NCBI GenBank assembly: GCA_009992235.1
Contig: JAACVZ010000005.1
Coordinates: 1-35,988 of the forward strand
Length of the DNA stretch: 35,988 nucleotides
Origin: Candidatus Saccharimonadota bacterium
GTDB lineage: Bacteria; Patescibacteriota; Saccharimonadia; Saccharimonadales; Saccharimonadaceae
Direction: 5' to 3'
A program made the translations under genes and the position numbers. Of the stretch, positions 9,761-22,833 are shown piece after piece; the first letter of the stretch is position 1; each line of letters begins with the position of its first letter. Below the pieces are notes generated by a model. That model made no database searches and was not told the DNA's origin. It saw only the letters and a list, made by a program, of their open reading frames with translations.

Positions 9761-12700
9761 ATGTCAGCACTATTTAGACCCGGCAGCCAAAAAGAAGTTG
9801 ACGATCAAATTAATCCGTCGCAACAGCATTATAAATCGGCCTATACCGATGCTGGGGTTGATCAGGCCGAAGCTTTTGCGAACGATCCAACCAACGCCAC
9901 CAATGAACTCAACGACAGTGAAGTAGACGCCTCAAAAAAACTTAACGAAGTGGAGGGCGGTGGAGGTGCTAATTGGACAAATAATGTAACCTCAGAAGAC
10001 AACCAGTCGGAAAAAAAGAATATAGCACTTCAAGCGCTCGGGCAGGCCAGAAAACGAAAAGGTATTCTTGGGCTTATTGGTGTTTTCGGTGTCAGTGGCG
10101 GGTTACTAGCTAGCTTCTTCGGCCCAGCCAGTCTTGTCATCAACCTCATGGAAAACATGGTCTCGACGAATGACTCAACGTCTACAACTATGGAACGACG
10201 TTTTATGAAGGCGTTTGGAAATATGTCATCCGAAGATCCTATTTGTGCAAATAATAGCAAAAAGTCTATCCGCTGTAAGATGGGCCGAATATCTAACAGC
10301 GCTCTTTACAAACTTGATAAGAAGGGCGTCAAGGCGGTCGGCTATGATGGTAAACGAACGGGTTACCCATCGAAAAATCCGACAGCATACACGTTCAGCG
10401 ACGGTAGGACGGTTCAAGCCAAGGACTTACGCGGCTTCCTCTCTCAACCAGAAAACCGAAAACTAGCCTCGAGTGTACTCGGAGCACGTGGCGCTTTTAA
10501 TATGCGCGTTAAAGCGTGGATTGGTAATCATATAACGAAAAAGTTCTATAACAAGTTTGGTCTGACACGGTCTGGCGGAATAGCCGATGGAAAACACTCA
10601 ACAACGGATGGAAAAACTCGATACGCAGCAACAATGGAGAAGCTTCGTGCAAATATTCCGGGGCTTGAGGCTGTTTCTGGTGTAAAAGATAATATAAACG
10701 CAAAAGCCCGATCGCAAATGAAGAAGGCGGGCAGGGGTGGCGTCGCGTATACTACCGCTGTAGCAGGCTGCATGGCCGTGAAGGCACCTGGATATGTCGC
10801 GGCGGGCGTCGCGGCGGTTCAGCTTGCGCAAATACTACCTTTCGCAATGGATATCGTGTTGTCTCCTGGTTCAAAAGCAAAAGCTGCGGGAGTTGGTTCT
10901 GGGTTTTCAGGGGACGACATGAACGCAGTGGGAACCACTTTAACCACTCAAACACCCCGTGAGAGTGATGGCAAAATGACTTCAGCGCTCGACTCGGCTA
11001 TATTACTTGCTGCGATTGGCGTAAATAAAGGTAAGCCGGCCGTATCGACAAAGTTCACGCCTGGTTATGGAGTTTTAAAAAGCGGTTTCTTTAGCGGTGC
11101 GCAAAATGTCGACAACGAGACCAAGGAATCATGTAACGTCATAATGAGCCCGGCTGCAATGTATTCAGCGGCCGCCGCCGACGCCGCTGTCACCGTGGCT
11201 GCATCGGCAACTATTATTGGTGGGGTTATAAAAATTGTTGGATCATTTGCCCTTATGGCTGCTCTGCAGCAGGTTGTTCCTGGAATTATTGCTTCTGTGA
11301 GTGAGGAAGTTATTAAAGAGGTTGCCGAAAACGACGCAATTCCTCAAGCAGAAGGCGAGGAGTTGGGTGATATTCTTGGTATTTCTTCGGCGGCGTTTTT
11401 CTCGGCTGGCGGTATGTCTAGAAACCTACCAACCTTAAGCGTCGACCAAGCGGTAGCATTTGAATCTGCTCGAAAAGAAAATGAGGCCTTTCAGCGAGAA
11501 ATGGACATCGCCTCACTTAGTCCTTTTGACACATCGAGTAAATATACCTTCCTGGGTAGTATTATGAATAATCTACAGTTTTCGATGATTTCAAGTGGAG
11601 CTTACAATAATAATTTTCAATCAATAGTATCAAATATTTTTTCAGTAGCGTCGTTATCTTTCGCGAATAACGCCAGTGCCGCAACCGGATATTCGTCTAG
11701 CTATTGTGGATATGCAGATGAGTTTGAATTAGGTACTGGTTCACTCGAAGGTAACACAACACCTGCGGTAAACGTAGCCGGGCTTCCATGCACCGGTATG
11801 ACTGACGGCCAATTAAATATGGAGACGTCTGAGGCAGTTGATTTAATGGCTAGTGAAGGCTGGATCGATGAAGGGCTTGATATAGATATTCCAGATAACG
11901 CAACTATCGACGATCTTATTGCACTTGGATATATAAAAAGTGAAACACCTCTTACTGACTACATCGAAGCCTGTGGCGACCCAACATCAGGGGACTACTT
12001 ATTTAACACGGCCGGCTGTATGATAGATGACTCTACGCCCGACACTAACATCACAGAGTTGTCCGTATGTACCAACAGTGTTAATGCCGAAGGTGAAACT
12101 ATTAAAACCTGTGCTAGCGGGGGAGTGGTTGACGATACAGACGGAGAAGCAACCACAATTACACCTCAAGGCACACCAAGCCAGCGCGCACTTACTGCTA
12201 TTCCTGTGTTCCTTCTTGACTACCAAATGATTCAGTCGATAAACGGTGAGGATGAAGAGGTGCAAGAAACTACATCTACAAACACCTCAACCGCCACACC
12301 ACTTCCAACTGGCACAAAACAAGAGCTTGCAACTATGATAAAAGATAATACCAATGTTAGCGACCGAACTGGTCAAATCAATCAAGTAGCTTCAGGCTCA
12401 AAAACAAACGTTTCAGACAAGGTACTAGCCGTTGTTGCGGCACTTGGTGAAAAAAATACGTTTACCATTTCATCATTCCAACGTTCGCCATTAAGTATTG
12501 GTGCTGGTGTCTATAGTTGGCACACAAACGGGGAAGCGATAGACTTTTCGGGTAGCGTTGGTATTAATGGTGTTCGTATCCCAAGCTTCAGCGCCGTTGA
12601 TAACACAATACGCACCTTTCTTATAGAGGTTGCGAATACTATTCAATCTAGTTCATGTCAAATTGGTGTACCGAATGCAACTTATGTAAAAACAGTAGAG

Positions 12701-21208: not shown

Positions 21209-22292
21209 GCACCGACTCGTAGACTTTGTGGGTCTGTGAAGCCATCTTTTTCCACGAATATTTCTTGATTTGTTTAAAACCAGCTTTTGAAAGTCGGGTA
21301 CGAAGTTTTTCATCGGCCAGCACTTGGTCGATAGCGTCGGCCATATCACTAGTGTCGGTGGGTGTGAAATAGTGAGCCGCTTGGCCATATACTTCTGGAA
21401 GACAAGTTGCGTTACTGCTCACTACGGGTGTGCCGTGTTCCATAGCTTCTAGACCTGGCAGACCAAAACCCTCCATGAGTGACGGGAAGACGTAGGCGTC
21501 GGCGTGGCTATATAGCCACGAAAGTTCACGGTCATCGACAAAATCGGTGAAGACGACGTTTTTATACTTTCGCTTCATAACGTGGGCTTCGGTCTTTAAG
21601 GCAGCAGCGTTCTTCTTACCGGCCAAAACGAGGCCAAGCTTCGGATATTTTGCTAGCAGCACCTGGTGGGCATCTGTTAAACGGGAGATGTTCTTATAAT
21701 CAGACTGAGACCCGACGTAAAGAATATAATTTTTGAAAGGTAATGAATATTTTCTTGGGGCGACCTGGCCAACATCTGAAGCCTCGTAGATAGTGGTAAT
21801 CTTTTTCTCGTCAACAGTAGGGAAGGTTTCGAGCAGGTCGTTCTTCGTGTAGTCGCTAATGGCGATAATTTGGTCATTGCTCTCGGCCACTTTCTTGAAA
21901 ACCTTGCGGCCAACGGCCTGTTTGGCGTGGTAAATAAACCAGTTTTTATCGGTGTTGTAGGTGTTAAGCAGGCTAAGGTCGTGAAAGGTGGTTACCTTTG
22001 GACCGTTATAGAGAATAGGTTGCTGAGGCATACAAAAGTGAACCAGGTCAGCGCGGAGTTTTTTAATAAATACATAAAAGCCAAGCTGTTCAGCGAAGGA
22101 ATATTGGTCATATTCGGCAACCAATACTTCAAAGTTTGGGCTTTTTGGTTTCCAGTAGTCGCGATCTTTCTCGCGCACTAATATGGAATACTTATTCTTC
22201 GTGTCGACATCTTGAAGATAGGTGACAAGACGCTCGACGTAGCGCCCGGTTGAGGAGCTTATAATACGCGCGTCAATTGCGATATGTGCCAT
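21183..22292 (-). CDS. family 4 glycosyltransferase (GT-B)
   Basis: The 369-residue protein is a GT-B fold transferase. The N-terminus is MAHIAIDARIISSSTGRYVERL, an acceptor-side HDLSLL follows mid-way, and the donor site SLMEGFGLPGLEAMEHGTPVV (about 290-310) contains the E-x7-E motif. Similar enzymes add mannose or other hexoses to lipid-linked glycans at the cytoplasmic membrane face. A TTGTTG-17-TATACT promoter ends 6 bases before ATG 22292 with no ribosome-binding site. Its -35 lies in the loop of the ncRNA terminator upstream. The C-terminal codons overlap jag by 26 bases. The sugar specificity cannot be read from sequence. Confidence 0.9.
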   Translation of the reverse strand: MAHIAIDARIISSSTGRYVERLVTYLQDVDTKNKYSILVREKDRDYWKPKSPNFEVLVAEYDQYSFAEQLGFYVFIKKLRADLVHFCMPQQPILYNGPKVTTFHDLSLLNTYNTDKNWFIYHAKQAVGRKVFKKVAESNDQIIAISDYTKNDLLETFPTVDEKKITTIYEASDVGQVAPRKYSLPFKNYILYVGSQSDYKNISRLTDAHQVLLAKYPKLGLVLAGKKNAAALKTEAHVMKRKYKNVVFTDFVDDRELSWLYSHADAYVFPSLMEGFGLPGLEAMEHGTPVVSSNATCLPEVYGQAAHYFTPTDTSDMADAIDQVLADEKLRTRLSKAGFKQIKKYSWKKMASQTHKVYESVLKNLPEQS

Positions 22293-22298
22293 GACATC

Positions 22299-22327
22299 AG
22301 TATATATAAAAAAGAGAAGCGCAACAA
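22299..22327 (-). promoter_or_regulatory. promoter of GT4 gene embedded in ncRNA terminator
   Basis: On the minus strand, -35 TTGTTG (22327-22322) and -10 TATACT (22304-22299) are 17 bases apart. The -35 is in the loop of the upstream terminator and its right stem and U-tract form the spacer. Confidence 0.65.
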
Positions 22328-22422
22328 ACGCTTCTCAATAATTTTGTGCAGGGATACTCCTTCGACTGGCCGTCCGGCCTGCCTGGTCTTCCCTGTCTTC
22401 AAGGCTACGTCCTCCTTGACAC
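22306..22422 (-). ncRNA. candidate structured small RNA, unassigned family
   Basis: This gap between two minus-strand genes holds no ORF, but the minus strand forms a well-paired RNA of about 115 nt. GTG (22422-22420) pairs with CAC (22348-22346), TCAAGG with CCTTGA (22419-22414/22404-22399), and CAGGGA with TCCCTG (22395-22390/22354-22349), making a three-way junction. Inside the last arm, GGCC-GGAC-GGCC (22379-22368) is flanked by GAC/GTC. A strong terminator follows. An extended -10 (TGG-TAAAAT, 22432-22427) fits a start near 22420. Two AAGGAG motifs are present. It lacks the domain IV features of SRP RNA and RNase P RNA motifs. The identity is unknown. Confidence 0.6.
22308..22336 (-). 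terminator. terminator of candidate ncRNA
   Basis: On the minus strand, GAGAAGCG (22336-22329) and CGCTTCTC (22321-22314) form a perfect 8-bp stem with a 7-base loop, followed by TTTTTT. Confidence 0.9.
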
Positions 22423-22437
22423 TGTTATTTTACCACA

Positions 22438-22833
22438 TTAATTCTTAAAAAGTACTTGAATGATCTCGTTTTGCTTTGTGATATAAATGATTCTCCGAGC
22501 CTTCTTGTGCCCAATTAACTCACGACGTAACTGTTTAATAACAACGTCATCGCTAATCTTTATGTATAATCCGGATATAATTATATTTTCAGACTGTTTT
22601 AACCCGAGCTTAAGCTGTTTCTTGACAGTACTTCGCAACGAGGATCCGACCGGAGCTTTAACCTCCCAGAGTAAACCTTTAACAATGACGTCAGGCGTCT
22701 TTTGTTTATAGCTATTTCTAGGGACAAGGAACTCAACAGGTGACCCAAAGTGTGCAGCAATAAGCGAAGCGATCTCGCGCTCTCGTTCGGATGGCCGTGG
22801 CTTAAGTCCAGGAGGAATAATTATAACTGCCAT
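22438..22833 (-). CDS. CdiA C-terminal-like PD-(D/E)xK nuclease, stand-alone
   Basis: The 131-residue protein resembles the C-terminal toxin nuclease domain of contact-dependent inhibition proteins (CdiA_C type). The central TPDVIVKGLLWEVKAP segment gives the PD-(D/E)xK catalytic set: D48, E57, K59. A helix with SSLRSTVKKQ, then NIIISG and a C-terminal strand RRIIYITK, complete the usual fold. Related domains are often tRNA nucleases. Here it is not fused to any delivery module and no immunity gene is seen beside it, so a housekeeping or defensive role is also possible. An extended -10 (TGT-CATACT) lies exactly 7 bases before ATG 22833, suggesting a leaderless message. The candidate ncRNA begins about 16 bases after its stop. 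Confidence 0.7.
   Translation of the reverse strand: MAVIIIPPGLKPRPSEREREIASLIAAHFGSPVEFLVPRNSYKQKTPDVIVKGLLWEVKAPVGSSLRSTVKKQLKLGLKQSENIIISGLYIKISDDVVIKQLRRELIGHKKARRIIYITKQNEIIQVLFKN

Follow-up and report, generated by a model that had tools for sequence, protein, structure and literature searches.

A hairpin RNA adjoining stand-alone CdiA_C nuclease genes: a candidate RNA antitoxin in Saccharibacteria and streptococcal phages

Type III toxin–antitoxin systems (ToxIN, CptIN and TenpIN) combine a nuclease toxin with a small structured RNA in two-part loci that are patchily distributed and multi-copy. Outside the ToxN family, AbiF/RCd22 of Clostridioides difficile (PMC12373285) and AvcID (PMC10511110) similarly pair a toxic protein with a non-coding RNA dedicated to its neutralisation. 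The CdiA-CT of Burkholderia pseudomallei 1026b is a PD-(D/E)XK tRNase (PMC9086364; PMC5576092), and for the MuF toxins of Jamet et al. small open reading frames (ORFs) lying downstream were taken to be the immunity factors (PMC5576092). Here we describe a locus in a 35,988-nt stretch of DNA from a Candidatus Saccharimonadota bacterium (contig JAACVZ010000005.1 of assembly GCA_009992235.1; the whole stretch is referred to as the window), in which a small structured RNA is predicted with a CdiA_C gene directly upstream of it on the same strand. We consider it quite probable that the two form a toxin/RNA-antitoxin module with a type III-like logic, the RNA being the cognate partner of the adjoining CdiA_C protein. 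A first, sequence-only reading of the window had taken the RNA for a free-standing one, whereas our comparisons assign it to the adjoining nuclease gene.

Linkage of the RNA to CdiA_C genes

A DNA search of 60 relatives returned one homologue of the window RNA, in G024, directly behind a CdiA_C gene; a pattern search added copies in G011 and a second one in G024, each 3' of a CdiA_C gene, and G010 carries a syntenic copy. A covariance model (CM) search of 295 genomes gave ten matches, of which eight adjoin a CdiA_C gene and two are orphan RNAs (Table 1), one of the latter (L221) with a perfect TATAAT and a terminator. We found CdiA_C genes of the stand-alone kind (~130-150 aa) in 65 of the 295 Saccharimonadales genomes, as many as 12 of them in a single genome; within one genus, 118 of 174 genomes have them. 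Nearly all of the fetched 3' flanks show a -10 box at the stop codon and, behind it, a ~45-nt hairpin terminated by T's, and the same layout was observed in Lactococcus termiticola, Lachnospiraceae, Schwartzia, Slackia, Adlercreutzia and one Synergistaceae metagenome-assembled genome. Behind some single CdiA_C genes (L102, L104, L129, L140, L066) there is a tandem pair of hairpin RNAs, sometimes of different classes.

A -10 box (at least 5/6 positions) lies within about 30 nt of the stop in 97 of 120 distinct solo CdiA_C genes, 53 of these boxes being a perfect TATAAT, compared with 28/119, 35/115 and 33/119 in controls (Fisher p 1e-19 against the upstream control); the median fold z is -2.9 at CdiA_C loci versus +0.2 in the control. 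Several loci without a sense box have an antisense-strand RNA (L056, L065, L105) or a weaker box. A detector that was fixed beforehand, and that scans a wide stretch on both strands, was positive at 40 of 62 new CdiA_C genes (6 antisense) and at 6 of 65 other gene ends (p 6e-11); because of this breadth, the box alone (57/62 versus 38/65) is weaker evidence out of sample. Many of the detector's misses hold a class RNA recognisable by eye, with z between -1 and -2. Among the loci read earlier, L023 carries a diverged RNA. The same counts bear on whether these hairpins are plain terminator or promoter clutter at gene ends, or the end structure of a mobile element, as the poly-T terminator of many copies and the insertion of the unit in some genomes might suggest; however, the scarcity of hits at control gene ends, the conservation of internal loops together with compensatory change, and the presence of the RNA beside the domain even within phage head genes make such an origin very improbable. 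No neighbouring protein family occurs at more than 6 of the 120 loci and no neighbour ORF is conserved; a protein immunity gene as the partner was rejected on that count.

The history of the locus can be read from its surroundings. The spacing between gtrA and the GT4 gene is 9-24 nt in ten congeners versus 569 nt in the window, where the CdiA_C gene, the RNA and its terminator fill it, and G010 has the identical arrangement; therefore, gene and RNA arrived as one piece (~570 bp). The GT4 gene, the operon partner of gtrA in congeners, now lies 3' of the RNA's terminator, with TATACT immediately ahead of its start codon (window 22292-22313), and its transcription may be leaderless or start from its own promoter. 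We rejected a riboswitch or leader of this gene as the identity of the RNA: GT4 is absent behind the RNA at most other loci, and some of the RNAs lie antisense to their partner genes. In addition, the window's genome contains a second, frameshifted CdiA_C pseudogene at L024:1460-1760 (G000:C1 about 12330-12620), followed by a diverged RNA-like hairpin with GTGCAGTATGCAC.

The association extends to streptococcal phages, in which the CdiA_C domain forms the C-terminal end of a minor head protein. The phage RNA, a TATAAT box and a 50-70-nt hairpin with a terminator, is encoded convergently on the opposite strand, and its closing stem varies with pairing kept around a constant core, TCTAACGCCCATGAAGCAG...GGAGGCGGTGGG. 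Scans of viral contigs with the A3, L031 and L033 proteins found nothing. Since the phage terminator overlaps the last codons of the head gene on the antisense strand, the RNA could be imagined to regulate the toxin gene by antisense pairing or at the mRNA level, as in type I systems. This is scarcely credible for the family as a whole: most loci have the RNA on the same strand, one RNA class includes both arrangements (L056 antisense, L057 and L093 sense), and the predicted pairing with the toxin start region does not exceed that of shuffled sequence (median duplex z -0.14, n 98).

Structure of the RNA and its co-evolution with the toxin

The features of the locus are collected in Table 1. 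The window RNA folds at -41.9 kcal/mol in RNAfold (z -3.0; 2/200 shuffles equally good), and z is still -2.65 minus the terminator. With its extended -10 box, this agrees with the original proposal of a structured RNA with its own promoter-like box and terminator, transcription being predicted; no good -35 was found and no sigma-70 site is listed here. The terminator is strong and has nine pairs; a perfect 8-bp stem had been described. RNAfold also returned exactly the stems of the three-way junction that had been drawn (a 3-bp outer stem, two 6-7-bp arms and the GGCC-GGAC-GGCC hairpin), but one arm alone is conserved: neither the 5' arm (22419-22399) nor the 3-bp junction stem is kept in the relatives aligned. 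Two AAGGAG motifs had been thought able to pair with the 16S rRNA tail; this Shine-Dalgarno role is unsupported, because the first occurs in the window's copy alone and the second (RAGGAG) belongs to the conserved internal loop.

Table 1. Features of the CdiA_C–RNA locus in the window, and orphan RNAs of the same class elsewhere
Feature	Position	Strand	Basis or remark
CdiA_C (PF18451) gene, 131 aa, stand-alone PD-(D/E)XK nuclease domain, putative toxin	22438..22833	(-)	Pfam E 1.3e-8
Extended -10 box TGGTAAAAT (TGG-TAAAAT)	22427..22435	(-)	Sequence; just past CdiA_C stop codon
Predicted RNA transcript	22308..22421	(-)	Start inferred from -10 box, end from terminator
5' hairpin TCAAGG..CCTTGA	22399..22419	(-)	Confined to window's copy
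Conserved core, one imperfect hairpin	22349..22395	(-)	10 homologues; CM match 22349-22395, 68 bits, the window's copy being among the model's own sequences
Intrinsic terminator GAGAAGCGTTTGTTGCGCTTCTC + T6	22308-22336	(-)	Nine pairs, 5-nt loop
Orphan window-class RNA without CdiA_C nearby	L221:1501-1547 (G024)		CM search
Orphan window-class RNA without CdiA_C nearby	L219 near 1026-1072 (G172)		CM search

Rfam 15 gave no family over the gathering cut-off at or near the window RNA, in line with the earlier description of this RNA as unassigned, and the best sub-threshold match, sbrA, was rejected at 18 bits against a cut-off of 45. An identity as signal recognition particle (SRP) RNA was considered as well, since CCAGGC..CCGGA resembles the 4.5S core; RF00169 and RF01854 are without match, and the freely varying apical loop among relatives also speaks against it. 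As a side observation, neither SRP RNA (RF00169, RF01854) nor the Ffh M domain (PF02978) is matched anywhere in the window's genome (G000); PF02978 was matched in 14/14 control genomes, and only 1 of 60 relatives gave even a weak match to RF00169. These Saccharibacteria may lack the SRP pathway, although the assembly is 96.7% complete and a gap is possible.

The conserved core consists of a closing stem (CAGGGA/TCCCTG), an internal loop (AGA/AGTA), CC/GG, A x GAA, GGC/GTC, A.A and the GGCC-GGAC-GGCC hairpin. The closing stem, the AGA/AGTA (or AGG/AGCA) internal loop, CC/GG, the 1x3 loop, GGC/GTC and the apical 4-bp stem are common to all ten sequences of the window class, in which 94% of cells are paired. 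The covariation that had been suggested as a check was found, with both-side changes at 11 of 16 pairs across the ten; compensatory cells number 29 versus 10.2 when shuffled (0/500 shuffles as high), and pairing is lost in a slid-partner control. Even a pair within the internal loop covaries, being A-U in six sequences and G-C in four.

At least seven RNA sequence classes were distinguished at CdiA_C loci, none of which has a match in Rfam. In seven sets besides the window class, the phage one included, compensatory change lies above all shuffles (0/300 each), with the reservation that the structures were predicted from the same alignments and that related sequences can beat such shuffles without structure; the slid-partner control of the window class is the stronger test. 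The similarity of the RNAs is correlated with that of the proteins (Mantel r 0.37, against at most 0.11 in permutations). Mapped on the toxin tree, RNA class needs 8 changes, where the minimum is 6 and the shuffled mean 47.5. Multi-copy genomes hold several RNA classes, and proteins of the same class from different genomes are more alike than those of different classes within one genome. As judged from these sequence comparisons, RNA class follows the protein and not the host. Two further RNA classes stand behind CdiA_C genes, GAGTGAAACAAGGCACC..GGCGACACTC and AAAGATACTTCAGTGTATACAATAGGCCTTC (L248, L250, L251, L244, L240; L241, L243, L268).

The putative toxin and its proposed neutralisation

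The residues D48, E57 and K59, corresponding to the PD-(D/E)XK catalytic residues, are invariant in the CdiA_C proteins. An AlphaFold model built from 13 sequences reached a predicted local distance difference test score (pLDDT) of 89, and its sole confident Foldseek match in the PDB was 4g6v_A (E 2.1e-5, prob 1.00, template modelling (TM) score 0.67), the CdiA-CT tRNase toxin of B. pseudomallei 1026b; a profile search matched 4g6v weakly only (E 0.7), and PADLOC and NCBIfam gave no meaningful match. The modelled fold thus points to a stand-alone relative of CdiA-CT tRNase toxins.

We propose that the RNA would be transcribed from its own promoter, fold as a ~45-nt imperfect hairpin and bind the nuclease, probably by covering the active site in the manner of a substrate; the bound nuclease would be held inactive, and the pair would act like a type III toxin–antitoxin module. 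In the phages, the RNA would be the immunity factor for a toxin borne in a virion head protein. The basis of this proposal in sequence is linkage regardless of strand and order, compensatory evolution, congruence of RNA class and toxin clade, joint gain and loss, and the lack of a conserved protein partner; transcription, binding, inhibition, toxicity and the tRNA target are what we infer.

The main rival to neutralisation is that the nuclease needs the RNA as a cofactor or guide, in a small ribonucleoprotein effector serving, for example, defence. A nuclease with a fixed structured RNA would fit RNA-dependent nucleases too, and tight co-evolution with conserved internal loops would fit a ribonucleoprotein of any purpose. 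However, no variable guide stretch is present, the variable part being a closing stem that stays paired; CdiA-CT relatives are active without RNA (PMC9086364); and RNA-only orphans, as well as a frameshifted toxin with an RNA-like remnant, suit an antidote better, which leaves the cofactor role unlikely. Some observations nevertheless weigh against an antitoxin: a few toxin-like genes, near contig ends, are without a clear RNA (L050, L071), the RNA sequences of different classes are so dissimilar that it is not evident how all of them would bind in the same way, and the class labels were set by eye from RNA motifs, at least one (L110) probably wrongly.

Extending the antitoxin proposal beyond the window, we lean towards a widespread family of polymorphic-toxin nucleases with RNA, not protein, as immunity, each toxin clade having its own covarying hairpin, and comprising both the chromosomal units of Saccharibacteria and the virion toxins of phages. 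If true, this would extend the RNA-neutralised toxins by a toxin fold and an RNA architecture that are both new, and would give a function to the stand-alone CdiA_C genes abundant in Saccharibacteria. For some toxins borne in phage heads, it would suggest that an RNA is the immunity factor still missing, having escaped notice while the search was for protein genes. Every new CdiA_C gene would also be expected to have a cognate RNA.

Comparison with known systems

Neutralisation of a toxin by RNA is a known idea. Searches of the open-access PMC literature (its scope leaving aside subscription papers and preprints) returned no account of an RNA associated with CdiA_C, and no precedent for the toxin fold, for the gene order, for an RNA of one hairpin or for a link with polymorphic and phage-head toxins. 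The predicted fold and the PD-(D/E)XK motif are shared with CdiA-CT of B. pseudomallei 1026b (PDB 4g6v) and its relatives, but these are delivered CdiA C-termini with the protein immunity partner CdiI; the genes described here stand alone, with neither the delivery module nor the protein immunity gene of contact-dependent inhibition and polymorphic toxins, and have an RNA in place of a conserved protein partner. Like the MuF polymorphic toxins of temperate phages (PMC5576092), the phage head proteins here end in a toxin-like domain, CdiA_C, yet their conserved partner is a convergent antisense hairpin RNA and not a small-ORF immunity protein as proposed for MuF. The proteins and RNAs of AbiF/RCd22 and AvcID are unrelated to the present ones, and neutralisation was tested there and is inferred here. 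As in type III systems, a putative toxin gene and a non-coding RNA gene are adjacent as one unit; type III RNAs, however, are tandem repeats upstream of a toxin of ToxN fold, with a terminator between, whereas the RNA described here is normally a single hairpin with its own promoter, 3' of or antisense to a gene whose product is modelled with the PD-(D/E)XK fold of CdiA-CT.
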